The notes under the pieces are model-generated. The model had not been told where the DNA came from, searched no databases, and worked only from the letters and a program-made list of their open reading frames with translations. Positions 13,939-29,078 of a stretch of DNA of 46,873 bases are shown here, in pieces. A program made the translations under genes and the position numbers. Source of the stretch: Pseudonocardiales bacterium (lineage in GTDB: Bacteria > Actinomycetota > Actinomycetes > Mycobacteriales > Pseudonocardiaceae); NCBI GenBank assembly GCA_019241525.1, contig JAFAWY010000126.1:1-46873 (forward strand), in the 5' to 3' direction. How positions within the stretch are numbered: the stretch's first letter is position 1; the number at the start of each line of letters is the position of its first letter.

Positions 13939-14507
13939 TCGCGCTATCCCACCTCCCCAATCGCGGAAGTGCATCCACCATTGTCCGGAGCGAGACGCCC
14001 GCAGCGCGCAAATCGAGAAAAAAATGGGCGCAGACAGCTCGCGACAAACTGTCGGGAAACCACGCCACGAATTGAGACGCCGGCGTAAGCCCCCGCGCCG
14101 GACTCCGACCCACGACCAGCCTCACTGGGTCCACGCAGACGCCCGCCGGCTTCTAGGTGGTCGTGGCGCATGTGTCCGCTCGAACCGGGGTCGAATGCGC
14201 CGAACTTCAGGTATCCAACGATCGCGAGCGTACGTACCTGGTGAGGCCTTGTCCGTAGTCCCGCGGTGTTCAATGCATACACACCACGGTCACTCGCTGC
14301 TCCCGCAGTACGCGCGCCGCCCTTGCGGCGACCACCCTAGGTACCCCGTGACGAGCACAGATGACCGTACTTCAGAGCACCGGCGGCAGTAGACAACGTC
14401 CGCACAGCGCTGCGCAATACGTGTCGACGACCTGAAGTCTCGGTAACAATATGGTTGCCGTCTCAGTAGTCCCGAGCCAGTTTTGGGCTCAGTGATGAAA
14501 TGCAAAG
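13939..14507. other. Gene-poor stretch at the island's left end
   Basis: No frame has convincing coding character, Shine-Dalgarno or recognisable motif. The base composition is less GC-biased than in the flanking genes. It may be decayed DNA. Confidence 0.35.
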
Positions 14508-14554
14508 TTAAGTGGCATATGCATGTTGTCAGTCGATCCAGTGCTGTTATTGTT
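14508..14554 (+). promoter_or_regulatory. Island-type promoter of peptide gene 1
   Basis: TTAAGTGG (14508-14515) lies 18 nt before the -35 hexamer TTGTCA (14526-14531). A -10-like ATTGTT or TATTGT (14548-14554) follows 16-17 nt later. The same layout precedes all six peptide genes of the island. Confidence 0.6.
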
Positions 14555-14622
14555 TTGAATTAGCTGAATCGGAGAGTTTCAATCCGACGAAGCACATGTA
14601 GACGACTCCGAGGAGGACATGA

Positions 14623-14868
14623 ATGTTTGATGCATTGAGCTTCGCCGAGATCGACGGGCAGCACGCCGAACTGCTTCCCGCCCGTACCGTCCTATCCCTG
14701 TTCAGCACGGGCGGCGGCGGTGGCGGCCAAAAGGGTGGCTGCAACCAAACCCAGGTCGGCGCTGTCAACGTGGGTCTTAACGGCACCCAGGTGGCGGCTC
14801 TTCAGGACATCCTCAACGTCATTCCGATCCTGGGCGCGAACAACTCTACCTCCAACTGCAGCGGCTAG
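14623..14868 (+). CDS. LLPART-leader small peptide 1
   Basis: The 81-aa product has the shared N-terminal block ALSFAEIDGQHAELLPARTV (residues 4-23), then LSLF and a Gly run with GGQKGG, then a hydrophobic tail with ILNVIPILGANN and a Cys near the end (two Cys in all). GAGGAGG lies 6 nt before the ATG, so initiation should be strong. It is a monocistronic cassette with its own promoter and a 20-bp hairpin after the stop. No signal peptide or TM helix is clear. I infer a leader-plus-core peptide (secreted or modified), but a structural or regulatory small protein is possible. No known family comes to mind. Confidence 0.82.
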   Translation: MFDALSFAEIDGQHAELLPARTVLSLFSTGGGGGGQKGGCNQTQVGAVNVGLNGTQVAALQDILNVIPILGANNSTSNCSG

Positions 14869-14886
14869 TGTGATCGCGGGTTATAT

Positions 14887-14931
14887 ACGTTAAAGGAGGG
14901 ATGGCCGCTCAGGCCATCCCTCCTTTAACGT
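14887..14931 (+). terminator. Hairpin terminator after peptide gene 1
   Basis: A perfect 20-bp stem (14887-14906 with 14912-14931) has a 5-nt loop GCTCA. The right arm contains CCTCCTTTAACGT. It begins 19 nt after the stop. There is no long T-run, but its strength and position argue for termination or transcript stabilisation. Confidence 0.75.
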
Positions 14932-15433
14932 CAGCGCTCGGTCGCCTAACGAATCGAGCGCGCACGCCGGGTCGTGGGCAGTCTGAGACCTGCTGACGAA
15001 GGTGAGTACCAATGCGCAGCCGGCCCGGCCGGCAAACTTAAAAAAACGAGCCACAAAAGATGGCTCTTGCGCAATCGGCCGCCGAATACTCACGGGAAGG
15101 GTGCCGCAGTACAGCACCCTTCCCATACGACCCGGCCGATCAGGCGTGTGCGCATGGAACCGGCAGGTTACTCCTTTGACCTCCTGAACTGGGTGGTCAG
15201 CGAGCAGTCCTGGCCTGTGACGGTCGCCATGCGACCGGAGGACGCAGCAGGCCACCGGCGGTCGAAGGTCCCGCGCAGCGCCAATGTTCTCCATACGGGC
15301 AGTACGATTGGCTACTGTTTAATCCCGTCCGTCGCCCTGTTGTCAATGACGAGGAAACGCGCGACCAAAATAGCCGCGCGTAAAAGTCTATCAGGGCCAG
15401 ATCAAGAGGGGTCACAAGGCAAGCGATTGCAAA
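14932..15433. other. Gene-poor stretch with one extra hairpin
   Basis: No convincing gene. GGGAAGGGTGC (15094-15104) pairs with GCACCCTTCCC (15114-15124), with a 9-nt loop. It resembles the cassette terminators and may mark the end of a lost cassette. Confidence 0.4.
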
Positions 15434-15468
15434 CGGAAAGGGTGGCCGCTATGCGGCCACCCTTTCCG
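15434..15468 (-). terminator. Terminator of peptide cassette 2
   Basis: A 15-bp perfect stem (15434-15448 with 15454-15468) has loop CTATG. In the minus direction it is followed by TTTGC. It lies 178 nt after the stop of peptide gene 2, so the transcript has a long 3' region. Confidence 0.7.
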
Positions 15469-15510
15469 CGCCGACAATCACGCCTGCGCTCAGCGCACGA
15501 CGGTACTGCA

Positions 15511-15528
15511 CGACTAAAATTATAGTCG
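15511..15528 (-). ncRNA. Conserved 3' hairpin of cassette 2
   Basis: CGACTA (15511-15516) pairs with TAGTCG (15523-15528). Cassette 6 has the same hairpin at 20227-20245 with CGACTC/GAGTCG, one compensatory pair change, flanked by the identical AGTCGGCTGCCCCAG. This points to selection on the RNA fold in the 3' untranslated region rather than to a separate gene. Confidence 0.5.
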
Positions 15529-15645
15529 GCTGCCCCAGCACCGCACTTAGCGTCATGCCGGCCATGCCGGTGCCGCTCCCTAGCCAACGACACCGAATAA
15601 CATACCCAATCAACTAAGCTGCCATTGATCAGGCAGATGCCGCCA

Positions 15646-15909
15646 TTAGTGGCAAGGACCACCGTTAGCATTGCCGCCGTTGCCGCCCCAGGCGTTAGCA
15701 GCGAAGTTCTCCTGGTCGTGCTGCAGAATGATGTTCAGGGCCTGGACTCCGATACCGCCGTAAGCAGCGCCACCGTTACCACCGACGCCGCCGTTGCCAC
15801 CACACTGACCGCCGCTCTTGGCAATGCCCATCAGGGACAGGACAGTGCGTGCGGGAAGCAGATCCACGCGCTGAGCGTCAATCTCAGCAAAGCTCAATGC
15901 ATCAGACAT
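15646..15909 (-). CDS. LLPART-leader small peptide 2 (Gly/Asn-rich core)
   Basis: The 87-aa product begins MSDALSFAEIDAQRVDLLPA and continues RTVLSLMGIAK. Its core is a Gly/Asn tract (GGQCGGNGGVGGNGG, about residues 34-48), a central hydrophobic VQALNIIL, and a C-terminal AANAWGG..GGPCH. Two cysteines bracket the core. The core of peptide 6 is closely similar, so the two are paralogues. The Gly-Cys-Asn composition recalls modified peptides such as microcin B17 precursors, but no modifying enzyme is nearby and this is only analogy. GAGGAGG precedes the ATG. Confidence 0.85.
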   Translation of the reverse strand: MSDALSFAEIDAQRVDLLPARTVLSLMGIAKSGGQCGGNGGVGGNGGAAYGGIGVQALNIILQHDQENFAANAWGGNGGNANGGPCH

Positions 15910-15977
15910 CTAAAATCCTCCTCGGAGTGGCCTATAATTGCTTCATCGGATGTCGTTTCCGATTTCAGCTAATCCCA

Positions 15978-16023
15978 ATCATGGCGAGCAAAAGGCGACC
16001 TGACAACATGCATTTACCCCTAA
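15978..16023 (-). promoter_or_regulatory. Island-type promoter of peptide gene 2
   Basis: Read on the minus strand: TTAGGGG (16023-16017), 17 nt from its start to TTGTCA (16006-16001), a 17-nt spacer and CATGAT (15983-15978). A further block, GGTAAGTA followed by TCAAAAA, near 16056-16072 is shared with cassette 6. Confidence 0.65.
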
Positions 16024-16159
16024 ATATGCAACGCACCACGTAGCCGAAAGACGTCGTTTTTGATTACTTACCTCGGGATGAACGATTACTGAGAACTGAG
16101 AACGCTGTACCTAGCTCTCGTTGCTCGCAGAGACTTGCAATCGAGTGGCCCCACCCATG

Positions 16160-16327
16160 TTATTGCTGGTCAGCAGGCACGCCGGCGACGAACCAGATGG
16201 TCGGACGCGGTACACGGTGCGACGTGCGCACTGCCCGGGCCGACCGCATGGTGACGGTGATAAGGGCGAGAAGACGTAGGAGCGCAGCGGTGATTACGTA
16301 GCCTCGCCTGGCGACGGCACCTAGCAT
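16160..16327 (-). CDS. Possible 55-aa hydrophobic protein
   Basis: This short frame has AGGAGGT a few nucleotides before ATG 16327. The product starts MLGAVARRGYVITAALLRLL and continues with a hydrophobic ALITVT, then a basic tail RSARAVRTSHRVPRP. It could be a single-pass membrane peptide. No family is recognised and it lacks the LLPART block. The Shine-Dalgarno is the main evidence. Confidence 0.35.
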   Translation of the reverse strand: MLGAVARRGYVITAALLRLLALITVTMRSARAVRTSHRVPRPTIWFVAGVPADQQ

Positions 16328-17563
16328 CCGGCGACCTCCTGCCGCTCGAGCGCTCCAGTACACGATGATCTTTACTGCGCGCAATTGTTGAGATGCCTGT
16401 TTATTTCAATGTGTCCGGCTACCTGGTCGTCCGTATAACCAGCTGGATCGGTTTCCGTATCGAGGCCGGTAGCAGCTCACCCGCCGGGCAGGGCTATCGG
16501 TCACTGCTGGAAGGTGCCACCGACCTAGCTGGGTAGCCACGGTGAACGCGTCACCCCTGAGGTAAAGGGCAAATCGCCATGGTGATTGGCGCGGCGCGTG
16601 CAGCAGCACTGCCGAGCAGGGACAGCACCAAGAGGTAGCCGGCGCAGCAGAGTCGGCGTTTCCACCGACGCGCATCCTCGCCACCCGTGTCAGCCCGGAG
16701 GCGCAGGTGGACTGCTGCGGTGCCGGCTTGATGGGCTCAGCCAGGGTGTTAACAGGAGCAGGAGCGCAGCTTGTTCGCTGGCTGCCGGCATTCCGAGGCG
16801 GTGCCTTGCCGAGCATGCGGCAGAACTCGGATGCTGAAGAAGTGATCGCGCTGTAGGCGGTTAGCGGGCATTTCGCGGTCAAGGCGGCGCCCAGAATCTT
16901 GGCCAACACGAACGCCGCGCTGCCTGCAGCGCGGCGGGAACCACTTGCTGGGCAATTAACCCACCGACGGGATCGGCCGCATGCGCTGGGTCTGCTCGGC
17001 CAGCAGCTTCAGCAGCTGGCGCCGGCTCGGTCCCGCTGCGCTGTTCTGCAGTACGACCGCAGCCAGCGTAGGGAGGCAGGGTGAGGGCGTGTCACCTGCT
17101 GAAGGTAACGCGAGCGGCCGCAATACTGCGATGCTCGAACATCCGGTCACCTGAGGAAAGGTGGCACTGTGCCATGGTAATGGAACCGCGTACCGCGCAC
17201 ACGGTGCGTTCCGAAGCAGGTCGTGCCACGCCTGGGCTCTGCGTTGGGCGGGTGAAATACCCAGCATCGATGCGGTGAGCCAGATAGCCGGTTTGCGATT
17301 CGCATCGCCGGCTGTCGCAGGAGAGCAGAAGAAAACCAACACTACGGTCGACGCCTTGCCCGTGCCATCGAATACCGCACGAGGGCCGTATGGTGCGCAC
17401 AGAGGCGATACAAGCACAGACGATCGGTTAACTGCTTGGCTCCCGTGCGAGCCACGCAAACCCGGTGCGTGCAGCAGCAGTGATCGCTCTCGACATGCGA
17501 GGGCTCAGCGTTGCAACGGCACTTGATGGCGGTCGCGCTCCACTGAAACTGGCCCCACGGCAA
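16328..17563. other. Gene-poor, possibly decayed stretch
   Basis: Several frames exist but none is convincing. A minus-strand segment near 16570-16680 reads like a signal-peptide or TM stretch (RRLCCAGYLLVLSLLGSAAA) without a start codon, and segments near 16960-17010 look protein-like (RRQLLKLLAEQTQRM). The pattern suggests remnants of genes broken by frameshifts. Confidence 0.35.
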
Positions 17564-17622
17564 GATCACGTTTTGGGTGCCTTCGACAACGAATTGTCGC
17601 GGTAGACACGCAAAACGTGATC
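17564..17622. repeat. Nested palindrome
   Basis: GATCACGTTTTG (17564-17575) pairs with CAAAACGTGATC (17611-17622). Inside the loop, CGACAA and TTGTCG (17584-17599) form a second hairpin with a CGAA loop. It lies 134 nt beyond the stop of peptide gene 3 and could end that transcript, or be an operator or recombination site. Confidence 0.6.
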
Positions 17623-17755
17623 AACACGCCGGGGGACTCGACGTCCAGGGAAGTGCCGTTTGCAGCCCAGACGCTCGCGGCGAGCAACGGAGTGACACAT
17701 CACGACCGTCACCGAGCTGCGATCAGCGACGACCAAGTCAGCGGGCAGACCACAG

Positions 17756-18058
17756 TTACGGTGTAGCAGCCTCCGCCCCTGGTGCTGCTGCCCCTCCACC
17801 GGTGCCGGCTGCCCCTCCGCCAGCGGCCGGCGTTCCACTGGACAGGATTGCCGCCGGCTGGCATATCACGCTCTGCTGCTCTGGGCTCCCACCGATGAGA
17901 CCAAGTACAGCAGGCACAGCTGCAGTGTGAGTCGTGGTGCAGGCATCGGCGACGACAGAACCGTTGTTGTCGATGCTAAAAAGAGACAGGACGGTACGTG
18001 CGGGCAGCAACTCCACCCGCAGCCTGTCGATTTCGGCGAAGTTCAACGTGTAAGACAT
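17756..18058 (-). CDS. LLPART-leader small peptide 3 (Ala/Gly/Pro-rich core)
   Basis: The 100-aa product from ATG 18058 begins MSYTLNFAEIDRLRVELLPA and continues RTVLSLFSIDNNG. The variable part has two cysteines (ADACTTTH and VICQPA), a hydrophobic VPAVLGLIGG and an Ala/Gly/Pro-rich end (TPAAGGGAAGTGGGAAAPG). The start at MSYTL is chosen because the paralogues start there and GGGGGGAA precedes it; a longer frame to 18106 has no homology. Its 5' leader resembles that of peptide gene 4. Confidence 0.78.
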   Translation of the reverse strand: MSYTLNFAEIDRLRVELLPARTVLSLFSIDNNGSVVADACTTTHTAAVPAVLGLIGGSPEQQSVICQPAAILSSGTPAAGGGAAGTGGGAAAPGAEAATP

Positions 18059-18140
18059 TTGAGTTCCCCCCAGTTGCGGCGTCCGTGTAGGCACAGAACA
18101 GAACACCTAATCGAGACATTAGCCGTCCGGCTTAATCCAT

Positions 18141-18186
18141 ACCATAACAGCGAGAAAACCACCTAACAACATAATCCGACACCTAA
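18141..18186 (-). promoter_or_regulatory. Island-type promoter of peptide gene 3
   Basis: On the minus strand: TTAGGTG (18186-18180), then TTGTTA (18169-18164) starting 17 nt further on, a 17-nt spacer and TATGGT (18146-18141). Its -10 is the closest of the set to the sigma-70 consensus. Confidence 0.65.
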
Positions 18187-18389
18187 GAGTTCCACGCATG
18201 TTCGGATAATGACATCGGGCGAAGGCTGGTGTGACGGACAAGAAGCCTGCTGCTTACCTACTCTTGGCTCACATGCTACTTAAATTCCTCGGTATCACTA
18301 TACCCATGATGGATGGTAGCCGTTAATGAACACATCTGATTTTGCGTTATCCGCGTCTGCCGGGCGCCCCTCACGCCGAGAAGACAGAC

Positions 18390-18420
18390 CAAGGGGTGGC
18401 CGCGACGCGGCCACCCCTTG
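18390..18420 (-). terminator. Terminator of peptide cassette 4
   Basis: A 14-bp perfect stem (18390-18403 with 18407-18420) has a 3-nt loop, and the stem contains GGGGTGGCCGC. It resembles the hairpins after cassettes 2 and 5/6, which all contain GGTGGCC or GGCCACC. It lies 160 nt past the stop of peptide gene 4. Confidence 0.65.
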
Positions 18421-18580
18421 CATCTACACGGTCACAGCGTCGCCCTCAGCGACTTCATCGATGGATGGAACGACCGCTGCCAACTCTTTCCCCGAAGCAA
18501 GGCCGCCACAGTCTCGTCAACTAAAACGATCACCGAGGCTACGGACCCTGCGCGTGTGTAGTTGCGTCTACCGGCACACT

Positions 18581-18784
18581 TCAGTACTTGGTCACCGTCG
18601 GCAGGCAGGTGAAGCTAGCGAACGTGCCGCCCGTCGACAACAAGAAACCTGGCGACTGGCTAGCGACGCTCTGGCAGGTCACGTCAGGGCTGTCGGTAAG
18701 GCTGAACATGGACAGGACGGTGCGTGCGGGAAGCAGCTCTACGTGCTGCCCGTCGATCTCGGCGAAACTCAGTGCGTCATACAT
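18581..18784 (-). CDS. LLPART-leader small peptide 4 (shortest)
   Basis: At 67 aa it is the shortest of the set. It begins MYDALSFAEIDGQHVELLPA and continues RTVLSMFSLTD. The variable part has two cysteines (DVTCQSVA and FTCLPT) and a Phe/Ser-rich middle (GFLLSTGGTFASF) and lacks the Gly-rich tracts. GAGGAG precedes the ATG. The leader RNA shares TCGATTAGGT and GACGCCGCA with peptide gene 3, so the two are probably an older duplicate pair. Confidence 0.8.
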   Translation of the reverse strand: MYDALSFAEIDGQHVELLPARTVLSMFSLTDSPDVTCQSVASQSPGFLLSTGGTFASFTCLPTVTKY

Positions 18785-18866
18785 CTACGTTCTCCTCACA
18801 GTGCGGCGTCTAGATGAAGTACAGAAGGGGACCTAATCGACCGCATCGCCGATTCGGCTAACTCCT

Positions 18867-18913
18867 ACCCTCGCAAGAATAAGAACTCCTGACAACACTC
18901 ATTCGCCACTTAA
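18867..18913 (-). promoter_or_regulatory. Island-type promoter of peptide gene 4
   Basis: On the minus strand: TTAAGTGG (18913-18906), TTGTCA (18895-18890) starting 18 nt further on, a 17-nt spacer and GAGGGT (18872-18867), a weak -10. An inverted repeat CACTTA..TAAGTG at 18953-18970 lies upstream and repeats the TTAAGTG word. Confidence 0.6.
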
Positions 18914-18970
18914 CTTTACATTCCACCACTGAACCGTGTGCCAGTATCTGAGCACTTAGACAGTTAAGTG

Positions 18971-19708
18971 CTACTACAGACATTTCTGCAACTTCGGTAC
19001 CTACGACCCGCCGCCGTACAGCATTTTCCCACTGCTGTTCATCCACGAGGGCACGGTGATATGCGGTCAAAAGCTACGCAGCGAGAGGCCGCCGCGTGCG
19101 GCCAATACCGCGGAGAGCAGTGAACACGCGTAGCCGACGTAGGCGCATATTCCCATCCTACGGAGAAGAAACTCGCCCGTTACAGAGGATGGCCGCAACA
19201 ACCCCTAGCATTCCAGCGCCCTGGTACCGATTTTCGCAGACGGATGCGTCTCGGCTACCGAGTTCCCACGCTATTCGTACCCACCCGCAGCACTTGATCC
19301 GCCACATCGGTAAAGATTCCAACGACATCAGGCAGCAAGAGGCGCGACAATGATCAGGCCGGCAACGGTAGGCGAATAAATAGACCCAATTTTTGTGAGC
19401 TACACGCGCAACGCGCCCAGTTGCGACCCAGCGCGGTCCAGGTCTTCGACCGGCCAGCGTGCGAGGCGGTAGACGTAGAGGTGCTCGATACCGGTCTAGC
19501 GCGTAAGCCAAGACACCCGCGCGAGATTAGCCACCGGAGAAAACTACTACCCGTAGGGACGCCATTTCACCAGCCAATATACAAGCGCATGGCATCCGGG
19601 CGAGGCTTGCGCAGGGCCACAGTAGGTAGTGGCTCGCTGGAAGCGTGCGTGACAGAGTGTACTTAGCGAGAATGGGCCGCATAAGCTAGGTGGGCGAATG
19701 TGCAACCT
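18971..19708. other. Gene-poor stretch
   Basis: No frame has a convincing start, Shine-Dalgarno or motif. Base composition is mixed. I see no repeats or hairpins of note. Confidence 0.35.
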
Positions 19709-19754
19709 TTAGGTAACCGGCACGGTTGTCGGCTCGCCTGCTGTTCGTCAGGGT
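19709..19754 (+). promoter_or_regulatory. Island-type promoter of peptide gene 5 (weak match)
   Basis: TTAGGT (19709-19714), then TTGTCG (19726-19731) starting 17 nt further on, a 17-nt spacer and CAGGGT (19749-19754). The geometry is that of the other five, but the hexamers are the poorest match. Confidence 0.45.
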
Positions 19755-19871
19755 GTGTGTAGCCACGTCGGGCGATGCTGCCCGACGGGGTTTCCCGGCC
19801 CGCAGGGGCCACTGTTCGGCGCCCACTGGAGCCCACTGCCCGGCTCACTGGGCCATTGTGAGGGGGACTAC

Positions 19872-20114
19872 ATGCCTGAGGCACTGAGCTTTATCGAAAT
19901 CGAGCGGCAGCACCTGGAGCTGCTTCCCGCGCGTACGGTCATGTCCATGTTTATGGCCGACGGCACGGCTGGCAACAAAGGTACCACTGGCGGTAGCGGT
20001 AACACCGAAAGCGCTCCGAGCACCACCACCACCGACCCGATGAGCCAGCAACTCGCTGGTGTCATGCAGATTTTTGCAAAGCTGCCGATCGTCGGTAAAC
20101 TTGCCGGTCAGTAA
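19872..20114 (+). CDS. LLPART-leader small peptide 5 (cysteine-free)
   Basis: The 80-aa product begins MPEALSFIEIERQHLELLPA and continues RTVMSMF. The variable part starts with a Gly/Thr/Ser-rich linker (TAGNKGTTGGSGNTESAPS) and ends in a hydrophobic helix (LAGVMQIFAKLPIVGKLAG). It has no cysteine, unlike the other five, and Met replaces Leu in the TV[L/M]S core. The start is at MPEAL, with GAGGGGG upstream; the longer frame to 19755 is unconserved. The amphipathic tail would suit a membrane-active or export-associated peptide, but that is inference. Confidence 0.8.
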   Translation: MPEALSFIEIERQHLELLPARTVMSMFMADGTAGNKGTTGGSGNTESAPSTTTTDPMSQQLAGVMQIFAKLPIVGKLAGQ

Positions 20115-20144
20115 GTGGCGGAGTGGAGATACCAGTATTCAGGT

Positions 20145-20175
20145 GCAGGGGTGACCGTAGTACGGCCACCCCTGC
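20145..20175. terminator. Shared hairpin between convergent cassettes 5 and 6
   Basis: GCAGGGGTG (20145-20153) pairs with CACCCCTGC (20167-20175), with further CCGTA/TACGG-like pairing inside. It lies between the convergent peptide genes 5 and 6 and could serve both. There is no T-run on either strand. Confidence 0.6.
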
Positions 20176-20226
20176 GCTGCTGGCGACAACGGCACGCGCT
20201 CAAGTAGATCGCGTGGCAGTACTGCA

Positions 20227-20245
20227 CGACTCGAGGGCGGAGTCG
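20227..20245 (-). ncRNA. Conserved 3' hairpin of cassette 6
   Basis: CGACTC (20227-20232) pairs with GAGTCG (20240-20245). It is the counterpart of 15511-15528 with one compensatory pair change. It sits 122 nt past the stop, against 118 nt in cassette 2. Confidence 0.5.
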
Positions 20246-20366
20246 GCTGCCCCAGTACTATCCCAGCGTTGTGCCCGCATGGCCGATGCCGTTTCCTAGC
20301 CAACGACACCGACTATCATCAATGGCTCGACTGGGCTATCTGCCATATGGTCTACAGGGCCGCTAT

Positions 20367-20630
20367 TCAGTGGCAGGGGCCGCCATTAGCATCGCCACCC
20401 GCCCCGCCCCAGGCGTTAGCAGCGTAGTTGTCCTGGTGCGGGTAAAGGATGATGTTGAGGGCGTTGACCCCGATACCTCCGGCCGCCTTACCACCGTTGC
20501 CGCCGACGCCACCGTTTCCGCCACATTGGCCGCCCGCCTTGGCAATGCCAATCGTGGACAGCACGGTACGCGCGGGGAGCAGTTCGGCGTGCTGGCCGTC
20601 AATTTCGATCGCGTGCAATGAATCAGACAT
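20367..20630 (-). CDS. LLPART-leader small peptide 6 (Gly/Asn-rich core)
   Basis: The 87-aa product begins MSDSLHAIEIDGQHAELLPA and continues RTVLSTIGIAK. Its core GGQCGGNGGVGGNGG is identical to that of peptide 2, followed by VNALNIIL, AANAWGG and the same GGPCH end. The leader region has diverged more than the core (AIEID for FAEID), which suggests selection on the core. GAGGAGG precedes the ATG. It converges with peptide gene 5. The start at MSDSL is chosen by paralogy; the frame continues upstream to 20684 without support. Confidence 0.85.
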   Translation of the reverse strand: MSDSLHAIEIDGQHAELLPARTVLSTIGIAKAGGQCGGNGGVGGNGGKAAGGIGVNALNIILYPHQDNYAANAWGGAGGDANGGPCH

Positions 20631-20698
20631 GCAGATCCTCCTCGGAGTAGTCTCGAAATGCCCCGTCGGAGAAGGCATTTCCAATTCGACCGATGTCC

Positions 20699-20744
20699 AT
20701 CATGGCGACAATTAGAGGCTTTGACAACATCAATTCACCCCTAA
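20699..20744 (-). promoter_or_regulatory. Island-type promoter of peptide gene 6
   Basis: On the minus strand: TTAGGGG (20744-20738), TTGTCA (20727-20722) starting 17 nt further on, a 17-nt spacer and CATGAT (20704-20699). It is nearly identical in layout and sequence to the promoter of peptide gene 2. Confidence 0.65.
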
Positions 20745-20794
20745 TCCACAGGGTCGTCACGTAGCCGTGGATCAACCTTTTTTGACTACTTACC

Positions 20795-21301
20795 TGGTCG
20801 TGGGAAGTTATTTAGATAGGCAAGGCCGCGTGCCTACCACGAAACATTCACAAAGGTGTTGTTCCGGCCGGCTCAACCGGCATTTTCCCTGATCAGGGTC
20901 GCGCTGCAACACATCTAAGTAGTGGCGCGCGGCCCTGCGACACAACAAGGAGCCGCGTTTGGGCCAATCCCGCCCCTGCCATCGTAGGGACAAGGATACG
21001 TAGGTGCGATGCGGTGCTCACCTAGGATCACCTGTCCTTCCGCAACGCCCCACATATCACGGCGTGCACGCCTTCGGTGTTAACTTTTTGCAGGTCAGCG
21101 ACTTGCCCCTGGAAGTCCGCGGTCGTTAGAAGGCCACCCGCACGACGGCAAACCTGGCGCAAGCACGAGCGACCAAGCGGTAGTACCGAGTAGAGAGCGC
21201 CGACGCCACCAGCTCCAGCATCCCCGCCCAGCCGGGCACATGGACACAAACCACCGGGCCCTCGCTCACCGCGAAGGCCACCACGCCCAGAAGAAATGAA
21301 G
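20795..21301. other. Gene-poor stretch at the island's right end
   Basis: No convincing gene between the upstream block of cassette 6 and tRNA-Leu. I saw no duplicate of the tRNA 3' end in the window that would mark an attachment site. Confidence 0.35.
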
Positions 21302-21384
21302 TGGGCGAGGGGGGAGTTGAACCCCCACGTCCTTACGGACACACGGACCTGAACCGTGCGCGTCTGCCATTCCGCCACTCGCCC
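21302..21384 (-). tRNA. tRNA-Leu (anticodon CAG)
   Basis: An 83-nt type II tRNA on the minus strand. The acceptor stem GGGCGAG/CTCGCCC, the D-arm AGTGGCGGAATGGCAGACGC, the anticodon stem CACGG/CCGTG with loop TTCAGGT (anticodon CAG), a long variable arm and the T-loop GGTTCAACTCC are all readable. CCA is not encoded. It decodes CUG, the main Leu codon in GC-rich genomes. It sits at the boundary between the peptide island and the fhaA operon. Confidence 0.95.
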
Positions 21385-21529: not shown

Positions 21530-22528
21530 GTGGGTAAGGTGCAACGGTTCGAGCGCCGGTTGCAGGGTATCGTCGGCGACGCCTTTGCCAGGGTCTTCGG
21601 CGGCAGCGTGGTGCCGCAGGAGGTGGCGCAGGCGCTCCAGCGCGAAGCTGACGACAATGCGCGTCCACTCGCGGGGGGGCGAGTGCTCGCACCGAATCGC
21701 TACACCGTGACGCTCGGGGCGGCCGACCACGACCGGCTGGCCGGAGACGAGCAGCGGGTGATCCGGATGCTCAAGGGAGGCATCCGGGCATACCTCGGGG
21801 AGCAGGGCTGGGATGTCTATGGAGACGTGGTGGTGACTCTCAAAGTGTCCGGGATGCTGCACACGGGACAATTCCGCACCAGCTCGTCTGTCGATCCCGA
21901 TACACCGCAACCTCGCACCGCAGGAGACGGCGCCATGAGCGACGCTATGAGCCAGCCGCCGGTCGAGCCGGCCGAGGAGGCCCAGCGCGGCCAATACCGC
22001 CACGATGGTGCGGCCGCAGCGGCGGCCGCACCGTACTACGGTCCGCCGTCCGGCTATGGTTATCCAGGCTCCCGATATACCGGTGATGCGGGCTCAGCCG
22101 ACAATGCGGGTAACCCTAGCCATTACGGATATGACCAGCCCGCTAGTTACCAGCCAGGCTATCCGCAGGGCGACTATCACTATGGGAACTACGCCGACCA
22201 GCAGCCGCCGTACGGTTACGGCCAGGACGGTGACCATAAGCTGTCGGCTGCGCTGATCCTCGATGACGGGTCGAATCGCTATTACGAACTCACCGAGGGC
22301 AGCATTGTGGTGGGCCGCGGCCACGATGCCCAGTTCCGGCTGCCCGATACCGGAGTGTCCCGACGGCACCTGGAGATCACTTGGGACGGGCAGACAGCCC
22401 GCCTCGCCGACCTAGGATCGACCAACGGCACGACGGTCAACGGCACCCCGGTGCAAACCTGGCAACTCGTCGATGGCGATGTGGTGCGGGTGGGGCAGTC
22501 CCGGCTTGTCTTCCGGACCCGAAGTTGA
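21530..22528 (+). CDS. fhaA: FHA domain protein FhaA (DUF3662-FHA)
   Basis: The 332-aa protein has an N-terminal DUF3662 domain (from MGKVQRFERRLQGIVGDAFA to about residue 120), a Tyr/Gly/Pro-rich disordered linker (for example YGPPSGYGYPGSRYTG) and a C-terminal FHA domain (GRGHDAQFRLPDTGVSRRHL and DLGSTNGTTVNG). It binds phosphothreonine partners of PknA/PknB and in mycobacteria influences peptidoglycan synthesis through MviN. The GTG at 21530 is preceded by GAGAGGAGG, fixing the start. It is the first gene of the kinase operon. Confidence 0.94.
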   Translation: MGKVQRFERRLQGIVGDAFARVFGGSVVPQEVAQALQREADDNARPLAGGRVLAPNRYTVTLGAADHDRLAGDEQRVIRMLKGGIRAYLGEQGWDVYGDVVVTLKVSGMLHTGQFRTSSSVDPDTPQPRTAGDGAMSDAMSQPPVEPAEEAQRGQYRHDGAAAAAAAPYYGPPSGYGYPGSRYTGDAGSADNAGNPSHYGYDQPASYQPGYPQGDYHYGNYADQQPPYGYGQDGDHKLSAALILDDGSNRYYELTEGSIVVGRGHDAQFRLPDTGVSRRHLEITWDGQTARLADLGSTNGTTVNGTPVQTWQLVDGDVVRVGQSRLVFRTRS

Positions 22529-22668
22529 CCGTCTATGGGTAACGGCAGGCAGAGAAATAACCATGATTAACATTGACGACCACGCGACCTAACCCTAATG
22601 GACCTGGGCGAAGGGCATCGAGCCCGAAGCCATCGAGCCCAAAGTCATCAAGCAGAGACGACCCAAGC

Positions 22669-23124
22669 GTGCCGGAGCTGGTGCTGCAACTGACCAGAGC
22701 GGGCTTTTTGCTCCTGCTCTGGTTGTTCGTCGTCGCTGCACTACGCATCGTGCGCTCTGACCTCTTTATAGCGTCTGGGCTGCGGGCCAGCCTGCCCATG
22801 TCGCGCCGCGTGGCTCGCGCAGAGCGTAACCGGACGCCGCGCCAACTGGTCGTTACCGCGGGTGGGCTGGCGGGTACGCGCATCTCCCTGGACGGCAGGC
22901 CCATCCTGATCGGCCGAGCAGACGACTCCACCTTGGTGCTCGACGACGATTACGCGTCCACCCGGCACGCCCGCCTCGGCTTTCAGGGCGGAGACTGGTT
23001 CGTGGAAGATCTGGGCTCTACCAACGGCACCTACCTGGACCGGGCTAAGGTCACCGGACCTACCCGGGTGCCGCCGGGAGTTCCGATCCGCATCGGTAAG
23101 ACGGTGATCGAGCTACGTTCATGA
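22669..23124 (+). CDS. fhaB: FHA domain protein FhaB/FipA
   Basis: The 151-aa protein has one N-terminal membrane helix (AGFLLLLWLFVVAALRIV, about residues 11-28), a basic linker and a C-terminal FHA domain (GRADDSTLVLDDDYASTRHA and DLGSTNGTYLD). The family links Ser/Thr kinase signalling to the division machinery (FipA in mycobacteria). The GTG at 22669 is chosen because homology starts at VPELVLQLTRAG; the Shine-Dalgarno is weak. The operon order (fhaA, fhaB, pstP) is the standard one. Confidence 0.9.
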   Translation: MPELVLQLTRAGFLLLLWLFVVAALRIVRSDLFIASGLRASLPMSRRVARAERNRTPRQLVVTAGGLAGTRISLDGRPILIGRADDSTLVLDDDYASTRHARLGFQGGDWFVEDLGSTNGTYLDRAKVTGPTRVPPGVPIRIGKTVIELRS

Positions 23125-23139
23125 CTTCGCAAGACCTGC

Positions 23140-23190
23140 GCGAGACCTGCTGGCAGGGTCGAGCCATCGCACGCGAGACCTGCTGGCAGG
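23140..23190 (+). repeat. Tandem 18-nt repeat between fhaB and pstP
   Basis: GCGAGACCTGCTGGCAGG occurs at 23140-23157 and again at 23173-23190, 33 nt apart. A degenerate third copy (CTGCCGGCAGG) follows near 23203. Each unit contains CCTGC..GCAGG, so it can form a small hairpin. The repeats fill the 97-nt gap before pstP, where the gene spacing is otherwise tight. Confidence 0.75.
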
Positions 23191-23221
23191 CTCAAGCCTT
23201 TGCTGCCGGCAGGGCTGAGTC

Positions 23222-24595
23222 ATGACTTTAGTGCTTCGCTACGCAGCCAAGAGCGACCGCGGCCTGGTCCGGCAGAACAACGAGGATTCGGTCTATGCGG
23301 GCCCTCGCCTGCTGGCGCTGGCTGACGGGATGGGCGGGCATGCGGCTGGAGAAGTGGCATCCAAGGCAGTCATCGCGGCGTTCGCCCCGCTGGATGACGA
23401 TGATCCCGGAAACGACTTACTTGACCAGCTACATGACGCGATGATGGCGGGTAACGCAGCGATTAGCGAGCTGGTCCGAGAAGACCCGGAACGCGAGGGT
23501 ATGGGCACCACGCTGACCGCGGTGCTGTTCGGTGGTAACAAGATCGGCTTGGCCCATGTGGGGGATTCGCGTGCCTACCTGCTGCGCGACGGCGTCTTCA
23601 GCCAGATCACCCGTGACGACACCTTCGTGCAATCGCTGATCGACGAGGGCCGGATCTCTGCGCACGAGGCCAGCCACCATCCCCAGCGGTCGCTGCTGCT
23701 CAAGGCGCTTACCGGGCACGAGGTGGAACCGTCGCTCACCGTGCGGGAGGCCCGCGCCGGGGACCGTTACCTGCTGTGTTCGGACGGGTTGTCCGACGTC
23801 GTCAGCTCCGAAAACCTCGCCGACGGCCTGACCTTGCCTGATCCGGAAGCCTGTGCCGACCGCCTGATCGAGCTGGCGCTGCGGGGCGGCGGTCCGGACA
23901 ACATCACCTGCATCGTGGCCGACGTGGTGGACGTCGAGTACGGCGAGGATGCGCCCATCATCGCCGGCGCGGCAGGCGACGGCGTCGAGCAACCGCAGCC
24001 CGACTCTGCAGCGTCTCGCGCGGCGACGACCACGCTGCCACGTCCCGCTCCGGTGCAGCCCGAACGGATCGAGCCTGCACCGCCAGATCCGCAGATGCTG
24101 CGTCGCAAGCGAAAGCGCGCCCTCATCGGCCTGGCAGTGCTCGCCACCCTGGTGGCGGCCGTCACCGCAATCGGTGCGATTTTGGTCATGGGGCAGTACT
24201 ACGTGGGGGCTGCCGCCAACGGCGAAGTGGCCGTCTATCAGGGGGTCCGTGGCGAGTTCCTCGGACTGCCATTGCATTCCTGGGCCGAAGGCAGTTGCCG
24301 AGAGGGCGCCCGCGGTTGCGAGGCGGTGTACCTGCGTGACCTGCAACCGTACGCTCGGACCAACGTACGCCGCGGCATGATCAGCAACTCTGGCCTGGAC
24401 GGAGCCCGGGAAATTATCGGCCGGCTGCGCACCAATGATCTGCTGCCGCTGTGCTCGCAAAACAGCACCGCCACCCAACCCGTCGTCACCACAGATCCGA
24501 ACTCGCCGGCCATGACTGGCACGCCGACGACCACCGGCACACCGTTGCCGGATAAGCCTTCGGAGCCTGGAGTGGACTGCCGGATGGCCCGCTGA
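23222..24595 (+). CDS. pstP: Serine/threonine protein phosphatase PstP (PP2C)
   Basis: The 457-aa protein is a membrane-anchored PP2C phosphatase that dephosphorylates PknA, PknB and their targets. Catalytic motifs are RGLVRQNNEDSVY (residues 14-26), LADGMGGHAAGE, GLAHVGDSRAYLLR, LCSDGLSDV and GGPDNITCIVADV. A linker is followed by one TM helix (ALIGLAVLATLVAAVTAIGA, about residues 300-320) and an extracytoplasmic domain with cysteines and a Thr/Pro-rich end. Its stop overlaps the rodA start (TGATG). Confidence 0.96.
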   Translation: MTLVLRYAAKSDRGLVRQNNEDSVYAGPRLLALADGMGGHAAGEVASKAVIAAFAPLDDDDPGNDLLDQLHDAMMAGNAAISELVREDPEREGMGTTLTAVLFGGNKIGLAHVGDSRAYLLRDGVFSQITRDDTFVQSLIDEGRISAHEASHHPQRSLLLKALTGHEVEPSLTVREARAGDRYLLCSDGLSDVVSSENLADGLTLPDPEACADRLIELALRGGGPDNITCIVADVVDVEYGEDAPIIAGAAGDGVEQPQPDSAASRAATTTLPRPAPVQPERIEPAPPDPQMLRRKRKRALIGLAVLATLVAAVTAIGAILVMGQYYVGAAANGEVAVYQGVRGEFLGLPLHSWAEGSCREGARGCEAVYLRDLQPYARTNVRRGMISNSGLDGAREIIGRLRTNDLLPLCSQNSTATQPVVTTDPNSPAMTGTPTTTGTPLPDKPSEPGVDCRMAR

Positions 24596-26034
24596 TGGCC
24601 GACGCCGTTCCCGTCCAGGACACCGGCGCAGCGCCGGGGGCGCTGCCGCCGACCAAGCGCGGACTTGAGCTGATCATGCTCGCCTTCGCAACCGTCGTGG
24701 TGACTACGGCGCTGGTGCTCGTGGAGCTCAACCAGCCGCAGGGACTTACCCGGTCGGTGCTCTACGACGGAGCTGCCTACCTGGCTCTGTTCAGCGCTGC
24801 CCACATCGCGGTGCGGTACCTGGCGCCCTACGCCGACCCGTTGATCTTGCCGTGCGTCGCGTTGCTCAACGGGTTGGGTCTCGTGGTCATTCACCGGCTG
24901 GATTTAGCTGACGAGACGACAGCCGCTTCCGCAGGAAACCCACCGCCGGTGGGCAACCTGCCGCACCAGATCGCCTGGACGGCACTGGGCCTTGGGCTTT
25001 TCGTCGCGGTACTGGCGGGAGTCCGTGATCACCGCCAGCTAGCTCGTTACGGCTACACGTGCGGGCTGGTGGGGCTGGGGACACTTGCCCTTCCGGGGCT
25101 GCTGCCCGCAGCTCTGTCCGAGGTCAATGGTGCCAAGATCTGGCTGCGCTTCGGGCCATTCACCATCCAACCGGGTGAGTTCGCCAAGATCCTGATCATG
25201 ATCTTCGTCGCTGCGTTCCTGGTGACCAAGCGGGACTTGTTCACCACGGCGGGCCGCAGCCTGTTGGGCATGGAGTTACCGCGGGCGCGCGACCTCGCCC
25301 CGCTGCTGATGGCCTGGGGGCTGTCCCTGGCTGTGCTCGTACTGGAAAAAGATCTTGGGACCTCGCTGCTGTTTTTCGGCATCGTGCTGGTGCTGATCTA
25401 CGTCGCCACCGAACGGGCTTCCTGGCTTGTCATCGGCCTGATGTTCTTCCTAGGCGGCGCGGTCATGTCCGACCTGCTGTTCCGACATGTGCATCGGCGG
25501 GTGACGGCCTGGATCAACCCCTTTGCTGATTACGACGGCGCTGGTTACCAGATGGCTCAGTCGCTGTTCGGCCTGGGCACCGGTGGCGTCTTTGGCACCG
25601 GCCTGGGTGCCGGACGTCCCGACCTGGTGCCCGAAGCCCACACCGATTTCATTACCGCCGCCATCGGCGAGGAGTTGGGTTTCGTGGGTTTGGCTGCGGT
25701 GCTGTTTATCTATCTGCTCGTGGTGATGCGCGGCATGCGCGCGGGCCTTACTGTTCGGGACACCTTCGGCAAGCTGCTCGCCGCGGGGCTGTCTTTCGCA
25801 ATCGGGCTGGAGGTGTTCATTGTGGTGGGCGGGGTGACCAAGTTGATCCCGCTAACCGGGCTCACCGCCCCGTTCCTGGCCTACGGCGGCTCCTCGTTAC
25901 TGGCCAACTACATCCTGGTGGCACTTCTGTTGCGAATCTCCCACGCAGCCCGCGCACCGGCCGGCGCATCCGGGCCTCGCAAGCCGGTGGCCCCGCTCGC
26001 TGAAGCCCGCACCGAGATGGTGCAGCGCCCGTGA
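24595..26034 (+). CDS. rodA: FtsW/RodA/SpoVE-family peptidoglycan polymerase
   Basis: The 479-aa polytopic SEDS protein has about 12 membrane segments. Family motifs include WLRFGPFTIQPGEFAKI, LVLEKDLGTSLLFFG, the NPFADYDGAGYQMAQS loop, GEELGFVGL and FLAYGGSSLLANY near the C-terminus. It polymerises glycan strands from lipid II together with its cognate transpeptidase PbpA, whose gene overlaps it (GTGA at 26031). Translation of pstP, rodA and pbpA is probably coupled. Confidence 0.96.
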   Translation: MADAVPVQDTGAAPGALPPTKRGLELIMLAFATVVVTTALVLVELNQPQGLTRSVLYDGAAYLALFSAAHIAVRYLAPYADPLILPCVALLNGLGLVVIHRLDLADETTAASAGNPPPVGNLPHQIAWTALGLGLFVAVLAGVRDHRQLARYGYTCGLVGLGTLALPGLLPAALSEVNGAKIWLRFGPFTIQPGEFAKILIMIFVAAFLVTKRDLFTTAGRSLLGMELPRARDLAPLLMAWGLSLAVLVLEKDLGTSLLFFGIVLVLIYVATERASWLVIGLMFFLGGAVMSDLLFRHVHRRVTAWINPFADYDGAGYQMAQSLFGLGTGGVFGTGLGAGRPDLVPEAHTDFITAAIGEELGFVGLAAVLFIYLLVVMRGMRAGLTVRDTFGKLLAAGLSFAIGLEVFIVVGGVTKLIPLTGLTAPFLAYGGSSLLANYILVALLLRISHAARAPAGASGPRKPVAPLAEARTEMVQRP

Positions 26035-27506
26035 ACACCCCGCTTCGCCGTGTTGCGATGGCCGTCATCGGCATGATCGTGCTATTGCTGGCCAACGCGA
26101 CCTACATCCAGGTGGTCAGCGCTGACACCTACCGCACCGACCCGCGCAACCGGCGGGTGTTGCTCGATGAGTACAGCCGCCAGCGCGGGCAGATCATCGC
26201 CGGCGGCCTGCCGCTGGCCAACTCGGTCGAGACTGGCGGCCAGCTGCGGTTCCTGCGTACCTACCTCAACGGCCCACTGTATGCCCCGGTTACGGGGTAT
26301 TACTCGTTGCGCTACGGATCAGGCGGCGTGGAGAACGCGATGGATGCGGTGCTCAACGGTTCCGATGGCCGACTGTTCGTGCGACGGATCTCCGACCTGA
26401 TCACCGGCCGGGAACCAAGTGGTGGAAGCGTGGAGCTGACCATCAACCCGGCTGTCCAGAAAGCTGCCTACGAGGGTCTGACCCGTAAGGGATATACCGG
26501 CGCCGTGGTGGCGATCAAGCCGAGCACCGGCGAGATCTTGGCAATGGCCTCCACCCCGTCTTACGACCCGAACCGGCTGTCGTCGCACGACGGCGCGGTG
26601 CAGGAGGCGGCATGGAATGCAGACACCTCGCCACAGAATCATTCCCCGCTGACCGACCGTGCAGTAGCCGCGACCTATCCCCCAGGATCAACGTTCAAGC
26701 TGGTGGTCACCGCGGCCGCGCTGGAATCAGGCAGGGCCACCCCGAACACCCCCCTCCCCGCGGCGTCTGCGTTGCAGCTGCAGGGCACCACGACGTTGCT
26801 GCACAACTTCGCCGATCAACCCTGTGGTGGCGGCACTACCGCCACACTGACCCAGGCGCTGGTTCGCTCCTGCAACACCGCTTTCGCCCAACTGGCCACC
26901 ATCGTCGGAGAGAACGAGCTGCGCAAGCAGGCCCAGGCGTTGGGTATCGGGCAGCAAGACCTCACCATCCCGATCCCGGTTGCACCTTCCACCGTCGGCG
27001 CAATTCCTGACATCGCTGCCTTGGAACAGTCCGGCATCGGGCAGCGTGATGTTGCGCTCAGCCCATTGCAGAACGCCATGGTCGCCGCCACGATCGCCAA
27101 TGGTGGGGTGCGGATGAAACCGCAACTGGTGCGCAACATCCTGGGTCCGGACCTGTCCGTGCTGGAACGCTTCGCCCCGGAGCAGGCCGGAGTCGCGATG
27201 TCACGGTTCACCGCCTCTGAGATCCGGGACATGATGGTCGCTGCCGAAAACAGCTACCGGAACGACGGCAAGATCAACGGCATCACGATCGCCGCGAAAA
27301 CTGGCACCGCCGAGCACGGCGCCGACCCCAAGAACACTCCTCCGCACGGTTGGTACGTGGCTTTCGCACCCGCGAATAACCCGCAGGTCGCGGTCGCCGT
27401 GGTGGTCGAGGACGGCGGGGATCGCAACCTCGAAGCTACCGGTGGTTCCCTGGCCGCGCCGATCGGCCGGGCCGTCATCGGTGCTGCCCTGCAAGGAGCC
27501 CGCTGA
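26031..27506 (+). CDS. pbpA: Class B penicillin-binding protein PbpA
   Basis: The 491-aa transpeptidase has a single N-terminal TM helix ([20 protein letters not shown]), a dimerisation/pedestal domain and the transpeptidase domain. The three active-site motifs are STFK (in [10 protein letters not shown], about residue 223), SCN ([10 protein letters not shown]) and KTG ([10 protein letters not shown], about residue 423). It cross-links peptidoglycan as the partner of RodA. The GTG start overlaps the rodA stop. Confidence 0.96.
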
Positions 27507-27586
27507 TGTTCCGGAGGCTGGTAGCGGGCGCGGCAACAGCAGAGACACCGCGGACGATTCCCTCTGTGGTGGGCTTATGGGATTGA
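27506..27586 (+). CDS. Possible 26-codon minigene coupling pbpA to pknA
   Basis: The ATG at 27506 overlaps the pbpA stop (TGATG) and has AAGGAG at an ideal distance (27492-27497). The frame encodes [20 protein letters not shown] plus six residues, and its TGA (27584-27586) lies just past the pknA ATG (27577). A ribosome leaving pbpA could read this frame and restart at pknA. It may be a remnant of an older pknA start rather than a functional peptide. Confidence 0.35.
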
Positions 27587-28956
27587 GCAGCGGGCAGTTG
27601 CTGGCACGGCGGTACCGGCTGGGCCGGCGCATCGCCATCGGCGGGATGGGCGAGGTGTGGCAGGCTGACGACACCCGGCTGGATCGCCAGGTTGCTGTCA
27701 AGGTGCTCAAGCCGGAGCTGTCCGGTGACGCGGAGTTCCGGCACCGCTTCCAGGCCGAGGCGCGGATGACGGCGTCGCTGAACCATCCCGGAATTGCTGC
27801 CGTGCACGACTACGGCGAGGTACCCGACTTCTGTGGGACACCCGCACCCGGGCCGAGCGGGACACCCCCACCCGGGCTGGCTTATCTGGTGATGGAGCTG
27901 GTGGACGGGGAGCCGCTGAACGCGATTCTGGCCCGACAGAACCGGTTAGGTGCGGAGCGCACGCTGGACATTCTGGAGCAGGCCGGTCGTGCGCTGCAGA
28001 CGGCGCACGAGCGCGGCGTGGTTCACCGCGACATCAAGCCAGCAAACATCCTCATCACCCCCACAGGCACGGTGAAACTGACCGATTTTGGTATCGCCAA
28101 GGCGGTCCACGCAGCACCCCTGACGCGCAACGACATGGTCTGGGGCACCGCGCATTACATCGCTCCGGAGCAGGCCGCTGGCCACGGGACCGGTCCGGCC
28201 GGCGACGTCTACTCGCTGGCGGTCGTGGGCTACGAATGCTTAGCCGGCCGCCGCCCGTTCTCCGCCGACAACGCGGTCAGCGTCGCGCTGATGCATATGC
28301 ACCAGCAACCGCCGCCGCTTCCTGCGGACGTTCCCCAAAACATTCGGAGATTGATCGAATCTGCCCTGACCAAGAACCCGCGCCAGCGTTACGGCACCGG
28401 CGGCGAGTTCGCCGACGCTGTTGCAGCCGTGCGCAACGGTTGGGAGCGGCCACCTAGAGAGCACAGCCCTGCGACTGCCGTGCTACCTCGTCCTTCGCAT
28501 CCCGAACGTCGCACTGCTGGAAGGATCGCGCTGGCCGCGCTCGGCGCTTTTGTCCTGACGCTTGGTGGCTACCTGGTGCACGACGCGCTGCAATCGCCGG
28601 CCACGCCGTCGGCCGTGGCCGCCGGTGCACCGAGCGTCCCGGAAGTGGTCAGCCCTCCCACACTGCCCACTTCACCGCAGGAACTCACGAAGGGGCAACC
28701 TGACCCGGAGTCGAATAACCGGGACGACGCGCCCCCGGAGGTGCTGATCATTCCTACCGATTATTGGGGCCAGTCGGGCAGCGACGCCGCCGTCGCCGCA
28801 AAAGTCCGTGGCCTGATACCGCGCGTGGTCGATGGCAACGGCGATCGGGTCGATCCGAACCTGCGTTCCCAGTGCCGGATTACCGCGGTCAGCCCACTGA
28901 CTGGCTTCGTAGCCCGCGGATCGACCCTCGAGCTGACCTGCCGGAGGGCACAGTGA
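27577..28956 (+). CDS. pknA: Serine/threonine protein kinase PknA
   Basis: The 459-aa kinase begins [20 protein letters not shown]. The Gly loop IGGMGEVW, Lys in VAVKVLK, catalytic loop [10 protein letters not shown] and LTDFGIA are all intact. After the kinase domain (to about residue 285) come a linker, one TM helix ([20 protein letters not shown]) and a short Pro-rich extracytoplasmic part ending in one C-terminal PASTA-like stretch. A small insert ([17 protein letters not shown]) sits in the N-lobe. PknA controls cell shape and division in actinobacteria. Confidence 0.95.
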
Positions 28957-29078
28957 GCAGTCGACACCTGTCAGGTGACAGTCGGCAGGGGGGCATGATG
29001 GGGTCCGGCTCGGGCCCCCACACGGCCACGGACGCGGCGGCGGCGCGGGTCACGAACGAGGAGCGGGACGGCGCACCC

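Follow-up and report, generated by a model that had tools for sequence, protein, structure and literature searches.

The six small genes analyzed here lie in a 46,873-nucleotide stretch of a Pseudonocardiales bacterium genome (GenBank assembly GCA_019241525.1, contig JAFAWY010000126.1; "the window" denotes this whole stretch), and each of them opens with the same block of residues. An earlier, sequence-only reading of the window had reported six open reading frames (ORFs) of 67 to 100 amino acids (aa), and all six are present, distributed over both strands (Table 1). Its list of invariant positions, namely, L5, E9, I10, an acidic residue 11 and LLPARTV[L/M]S, holds in every one of the six peptides, with LLP starting at residue 17 in each. 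The genes sit between what we take to be an RNA 2',3'-cyclic phosphodiesterase gene and a tRNA-Leu, presumably followed by FHA/PstP/RodA/PBP/PknAB-like genes (21301-21384, 21530-31025).

TABLE 1 Leader genes, upstream elements and palindromes of the window. Gene coordinates include the stop codon; for genes 3, 5 and 6 the start is the Met directly before the block, and the longest ORF was not used. R1 is the model of the upstream element described in the text.
Feature	Position	Strand	Description
Gene 1	14623-14868	+	81 aa; leader MFDALSFAEIDGQHAELLPARTVLS and Gly/Asn core with two Cys
Gene 2	15646-15909	-	87 aa; leader and Gly-rich core, GIGVQALNIIL strand, two Cys 50 apart
Gene 3	17756-18058	-	100 aa; leader, two-Cys core and Ala/Gly/Pro tail
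Gene 4	18581-18784	-	67 aa; leader and short two-Cys core
Gene 5	19872-20114	+	80 aa; leader and Gly/Thr core without Cys
Gene 6	20367-20630	-	87 aa; leader and core in common with gene 2
Upstream element, gene 1	14489-14620	+	R1 E = 7.6e-9; in training set
Upstream element, gene 2	15913-16043	-	R1 E = 8.0e-14; not in training set, but its orthologue is
Upstream element, gene 3	18064-18196	-	R1 E = 1.5e-9; in training set
Upstream element, gene 4	18789-18932	-	R1 E = 4.9e-17; in training set
Upstream element, gene 5	19709-19815	+	Weak R1 match, E = 1.1e-5; not in training set; ends 56 bases before start codon
Upstream element, gene 6	20633-20764	-	R1 E = 2.6e-12; in training set
Palindrome downstream of gene 1	14895-14933		GC-rich, by eye
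Palindrome downstream of gene 2	15437-15468		GC-rich, by eye
Palindrome downstream of gene 4	18389-18421		GC-rich, by eye

The recurrence of the block among the window genes is far beyond chance. Searching with gene 1 alone recovered the other five window genes at E = 5.1e-10 to 5.2e-7, and a profile of 18 copies from the genome, which includes the six window genes themselves, found them in the whole genome at E = 1.1e-18 to 5.9e-15. Scanning the six peptides against Pfam and NCBIfam gave no usable match (PF22606 reached 16.8 bits for gene 2, below its cut-off of 27, and was rejected), and we found none of the leader motifs in open-licence PMC text. These results agree with the earlier remark that the motif is unknown among described families. 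A second genome of the genus, Centralia_MAG_342, carries orthologues of all six genes (loci L058, L128 and L046); the gene 1 orthologue is 97.5% identical, the gene 4 protein is identical, and 2.6 kb of the island together with the flanking tRNA-Leu region gave 83.6% alignment to one contig of that genome. Between the window genes and these orthologues, the summed dN/dS values were 0.023/0.130 for the leader and 0.064/0.326 for the core. Judged by these values, both leader and core are under purifying selection, with the exception of the fast-evolving core of gene 5 (0.36/0.28).

Are these genes an isolated island of six? We dropped this idea because the gene 1 search found, besides the other five, twelve copies elsewhere in the 4.7-Mb genome of the window (G000) at E <= 5e-4. 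The 18 copies occupy nine sites: six are on the window contig (C102), five on C140, two at different places on C109, and one each on C79, C51, C54, C33 and C70. The sequence-only reading had proposed searching actinomycete genomes with a profile of the block. Run against 41 genomes, such a profile found the 18 copies of G000 and matched all 11 genomes of the genus (5 to 26 matches each, 175 in total, E <= 0.01); among the 30 other genomes, only G021 (four matches, best 4.6e-7) and G013 gave matches, and the single one in G013 (E = 0.0024) looks like chance. Records that carry the block and have a name (77 loci, obtained from 113 stretches of which 80 were confirmed) belong to metagenome-assembled Pseudonocardiales, Pseudonocardiaceae or Actinobacteria, so that the window most likely comes from an uncultured genome of Pseudonocardiaceae type. 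On the evidence of these searches, the leader family is real, widespread and dispersed, and it is undescribed as far as they reach.

The dispersed copies also have in common an upstream element of roughly 150 bp, present before 17 of the 18 copies in G000, with a conserved TTGNCA and, farther down, GCCGAATCGGC. R1, a sequence-only model built from 40 upstream regions, identified 18 sites in the whole genome at E <= 0.026 (the next had E = 0.32), of which 17 precede leader genes and the remaining one a decayed leader, MSDALGLAEIDEPEIERLAADIPSPRR, at G000:C127:6888-7100 (L257), which is likely a relic copy. Eight of these sites are in the R1 training set; nine of the other ten precede leader genes, and one precedes the decayed copy. 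A search of 12 loci from other genera did not reveal the element, which is thus a genus trait at this sensitivity. Sigma-70-like sites numbered 4 versus 2.1 by chance, three of them inside the shared element of genes 1, 2 and 6. The palindromes in Table 1 are of the type GGxTGGCCGC...GCGGCCAxCC, and only the one downstream of gene 4 appears in a terminator scan, whose 7 sites versus 5.1 by chance are no better than chance.

What might read such a leader? In G021, the leader genes adjoin a 436-residue protein with HEFGH and RLDGYY. Homologues of this protein were found in 14 of the 41 genomes, comprising all 11 of the genus, G021, G033 (E = 5.5e-87) and G040 (weak and partial). G000 has two such genes: one immediately follows the five-gene array on C140, and the other immediately follows the single copy on C54. 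The residues of two zinc motifs, H199, E200, G202 and H203 of the first (H-E-x-G-H) and D295 and G296 of the second (D-G), are invariant in 39 of 39 rows, and hydropathy indicates five strong hydrophobic segments. Pfam M50 was matched by 13 of these 39 proteins and Pfam PqqD by 7 (best 7.4e-4), while all 39 matched both the NCBIfam daptide protease model (NF041824; best E = 1.7e-34) and the LiaK/YydH model (NF058609). Alignment of the N-terminal part to PqqD domains (23 of 30 fetched PqqD loci) with hhalign gave 89.0% (E = 2.3e-6), compared with 0.13% for the membrane part and no more than 2.79% in any of 20 column-shuffled controls. Identity to an annotated MpaP, the daptide protease, was 29% over 323 columns. 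By its motifs and profile matches, the partner is an integral-membrane HExxH metalloprotease distantly related to MpaP, with an N-terminal domain resembling PqqD and the recognition element (RRE) of ribosomally synthesized and posttranslationally modified peptides (RiPPs). Of 360 good genomes sampled within the class, 52 carried the protease, and at a stricter limit (E <= 1e-30) a phylum search found it in 23 of 296 genomes, 18 of them outside the class. Two matches, L227 (G580) and L228 (G591), have an in-frame TGA; L249 (G432:C1) has three proteases and interleaved leader genes within 10 kb, in a genome with four copies; and contigs G002:C167 and G003:C53 have the same content, with leaders and protease at identical coordinates, and are possibly shared or mis-binned.

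To quantify the linkage of leader and protease, we used the 66 distinct proteases among the 111 full-length matches in the loci examined. By our first rule, a leader-like ORF lay upstream on the same strand of 53 of the 66 and on the other strand of 2; these two ORFs, in G021 and G464, are genuine peptide genes in divergent orientation. The 13 misses comprised 11 leader variants recognizable by eye (LLPARSVM, ALPDKEV and ELLPGREAL), the C54 copy (LLPDRAVM) and L187, with only 187 bases upstream, so that by rule and by eye together 65 of the 66 proteases have a leader gene immediately upstream. A relaxed automatic rule gave 58 of 66 upstream versus 2 on the opposite strand and 1 downstream. Four phylum-search loci were read as well; two repeat proteases already counted, and the others, L307 and L308 from outside the class, both have leader arrays upstream, of two and four genes. 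In most actinobacteria, one to four leader genes stand directly upstream of their own protease.

Leader type and protease are also inherited together. A tree was built from 65 of the 66 proteases, with eight rule-missed and two odd leader labels set by hand. On it, the LPARTV (31 rows, support 100/99), LPDKEV (22 rows, 100/100) and LPGREAL (5 rows, 100/100) types each form a clade; LPDREAM (6 rows) takes two changes because a row of unknown leader falls inside it. Leader type requires 4 changes on this tree, the least possible, versus a mean of 28.9 in 200 shuffles, none of which was as low. Near-copies inflate this clustering, and a split within one host family is independent of them: family f1 holds LPARTV proteases and also four LPDKEV proteases (L237-L240) whose neighbors on the tree come from other orders. 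On the protease tree, then, leader type follows the protease and not the host family.

We then considered the genes around the protease. In the genus, the leader array is followed by the protease, then by a lipoprotein that combines a Gly-rich linker with a DUF2807 domain (E = 2.2e-29 and 2.6e-29 for the two lipoproteins scanned), and last by an AAA + GerE regulator. Such regulators occur near the protease in three genera (L166, L246 and L247) and by a leader gene in G630 and G586. A secreted partner with a CxxC...AxAxQ motif, which we derived from the sequences examined, is fused to the protease as a C-terminal extension in 22 of 22 LPDKEV cases (e.g., L181 of G033 and L184-L202) and is encoded by a separate gene just downstream in 5 of 6 LPDREAM and 4 of 5 LPGREAL loci; it was found in 0 of 32 LPARTV loci. 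NCBIfam identified the seven scanned neighbors of the two G000 proteases as helicases, an MFS transporter, a LuxR regulator, RmuC, a sigma factor and YchF. Among these seven there was no mpaB, mpaC, mpaD or mpaM, no radical SAM epimerase and no ABC transporter (the genome was not searched for one), and no immunity gene was seen beside either protease. The gene lists of the other loci were read by eye only, and no modifying enzyme was apparent in them.

The cores that follow the leader are mostly Gly-rich. In 145 distinct members from the genus, core composition was 35.6% Gly, 11.3% Ala, 7.3% Asn and 7.3% Ser, at least three GGx in a row occurred in 76, and core length reached about 120 residues. 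The cores had been called unrelated, which is wrong in part: those of genes 2 and 6 have 49 of 60 residues in common, and this class, like several others, recurs in the genus. Two Cys are present in five of the six window peptides; across the 145 members, 109 cores have none, 7 have one and 29 have two. Since 16 of these 29 fall in one crude group and in 12 of the 29 the two Cys are <20 residues apart, we regard the pairing as a weak sign of export. The two-Cys pattern of genes 3 and 4 may, by eye and weakly, match peptides of a Streptomyces plasmid; BLASTP of a 16-residue piece of gene 4 against the core from that plasmid returned nothing. On the basis of the Gly-rich cores, the lipoprotein and the secreted partners, the payloads are most likely small, mostly Gly-rich proteins laid down as surface material with the Gly-rich lipoprotein.

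Taken together, these data make it probable that the block is a leader that is bound by an RRE-like domain and cut by the membrane protease to release the core, with no modifying enzyme and with most of the genus copies served in trans. The block would act as a cytoplasmic leader peptide (MSDALSFAEIDGQHVELLPARTVLS) to which the PqqD/RRE-like N-terminal domain of the protease would bind, and the multipass metalloprotease (HExxH ... DG, of the M50/site-2 kind) would cut the leader so that the core leaves the cell, much as MpaP does for daptides and, it is believed, EpeP for epipeptides; in the system described here no modifying enzyme would take part. In the genus, leader genes have multiplied and scattered together with a common upstream element. 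Given that the window contig has no protease gene, the window genes would be processed in trans, and most genus copies, these six included, may be served by the C140 and C54 proteases. The payloads, mostly Gly-rich and often with two Cys, would then be laid down at the cell surface with the lipoprotein encoded after the protease. The sequence-only reading had seen a constant leader with variable cores as typical of ribosomal peptide precursors; this pattern is supported, and more firmly than the letters alone could show, by the RRE-M50 membrane protease that adjoins the block in many actinobacteria and is of the kind used for leader removal in daptides and epipeptides. The cores, however, are not all unrelated.

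Several observations weigh against this interpretation. Twelve of the 18 copies in G000, including all six window genes, are on contigs without a protease gene, so that what ties them to the protease is the leader itself, and the C54 leader copy has no R1 match. The relaxed leader rule and the eye check behind the count of 65 of 66 were made after the misses had been seen, the eye step without a control of its own. The two proteases whose scores were inspected, one of G000 and a second one, lay below both curated cut-offs: they reached 101.9 and 100.7 bits against the NF041824 cut-off of 300 bits and 43 and 43.8 bits against the NF058609 cut-off of 225 bits. In a PDB search, the only relevant match was PqqD 3g2b, at E = 0.36. 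An AlphaFold model of the protease, built with 12 close rows, had a mean pLDDT of 46.8 and was too poor to use; its N-terminal part shows the strand-strand-strand-helix-helix-helix order of an RRE at a pLDDT of about 42-64, which is not evidence. NCBIfam found no RiPP enzyme among the seven G000 protease neighbors and two window genes, and no genome-wide enzyme search was made. Two other PqqD-domain genes lie away from the leader copies, at G000:C84:66253-66450 and C81:23224-23400, and may mark RiPP clusters.

These last points bear on whether the peptides are true RiPPs, with a leader that also guides unlinked modifying enzymes and cores that become modified natural products, possibly antimicrobial. 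An RRE-like domain and an M50 protease are RiPP hallmarks, many copies of a constant leader with variable cores fit the same pattern, and the genome has the two other PqqD-domain genes. We nevertheless consider this unlikely, given that the scanned protease neighbors include no RiPP enzyme, that cores so rich in Gly and so long are unlike compact modified cores, and that an annotated daptide locus has mpaB, C, D and M beside mpaP whereas nothing alike was seen here. The suggestion of a bacteriocin in the sequence-only reading fares poorly for similar reasons: neither of the two G000 proteases has an immunity gene or a modifying enzyme visible next to it, and the cores resemble Gly-rich material.

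Could the dispersed copies instead keep the block for another reason, as an intracellular or membrane-docking segment, with the protease serving only its neighbors? The 12 unlinked copies are compatible with this, as is the fact that leader binding by the protease is our inference. However, linked and unlinked copies have the same block and the same upstream element, and the block varies among clades in step with the protease, so we regard this explanation as improbable. A trace less probable again is that released cores act as peptide signals, which the LuxR-type AAA regulator near the protease would sense. The position of that regulator in three genera and the upstream element common to the copies would suit signaling, but long, repetitive, Gly-rich cores in many parallel copies per genome are unlike short pheromones, and no such regulator stands beside the class-wide systems with other leader types in the gene lists that we read.

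A broader proposal, which we put forward tentatively and at somewhat less than even chances, is a phylum-wide, non-RiPP route of protein maturation and export in actinobacteria. In it, the RRE-M50 protease would recognize leaders of the form LPx[RK] and bring small proteins, unmodified and self-assembling, to the surface, and in this uncultured genus the route would have become a scattered regulon of up to 26 payloads served in trans. Natural-product pathways are where RRE domains and M50 leader proteases are known; the ones described here have no visible modifying enzymes and stand beside structural-looking proteins. A leader and one membrane protease would, if this is true, be a general actinobacterial route for sending out small proteins. 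Annotated genomes miss the system: on two Streptomyces plasmids (L271, NZ_CP102333.1, and L272, NZ_CP107797.1), leader genes and protease are all annotated "hypothetical protein."

Other known systems can be compared with this one. Chaplins, curli and PE_PGRS proteins are secreted, repetitive surface proteins that are Gly-rich or amyloid-prone; they depend on Sec or ESX signals, their motifs differ, and their likeness to the cores is in composition only. Double-glycine bacteriocins have a GG site and an ABC transporter with a C39 peptidase. The leader described here ends in LLPARTV[LM]S with no GG at its conserved end, and the scan for a transporter covered the protease neighbors in G000, where none was seen.

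Among the closest comparisons are the daptides, whose MpaP carries an RRE domain at the N terminus of a site-2-type intramembrane protease and removes the leader (PMC10036551; Nat Commun 2023). In an annotated daptide locus, mpaB, M, D, C, four peptide genes and mpaP follow one another, with the peptide genes directly upstream of mpaP. Both systems thus have a small leader-peptide array directly upstream of homologous RRE-fused site-2-type proteases. Unlike daptides, the system described here has no visible mpaB, C, D or M. The annotated daptide leaders are ELVELEMQELEALEAP, with a C-terminal Thr on the peptide; ELExMEAP and a C-terminal Thr occur in 0 of 6 window peptides, which end in G, H, P, Y, Q and H. 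Instead, the leader is LLPARTV or one of its cousins LPDKEV, LPDREAM and LPGREAL, the payloads are larger and mostly Gly-rich, and the copies are scattered. In epipeptides, the membrane M50 protease EpeP/YydH is believed to cut and export the peptide (PMC7026026, PMC10885120). A membrane M50 protease is present here too, and the LiaK/YydH model matches every homologue, but the G000 protease scores far below the cut-off of that model and its seven neighbors include no radical SAM epimerase. The M50 proteases TglG and TmoG and the pearlins also appear in this literature (within PMC10036551, PMC7026026, PMC12710340, PMC10885120 and PMC7470986). The passages retrieved from open-licence PMC text described daptides, epipeptides and pearlins only, and neither an RRE-M50 pair without modifying enzymes nor this leader. 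The N-terminal part of the protease resembles PqqD and RiPP recognition elements at the profile level, with the difference that it is fused to the protease itself. Because defining features of daptides and of epipeptides were looked for and not found, we assign the system to neither of the two; by its sequence features, it would nonetheless belong with the M50 membrane proteases that remove leaders in dependence on an RRE, which are a known kind.

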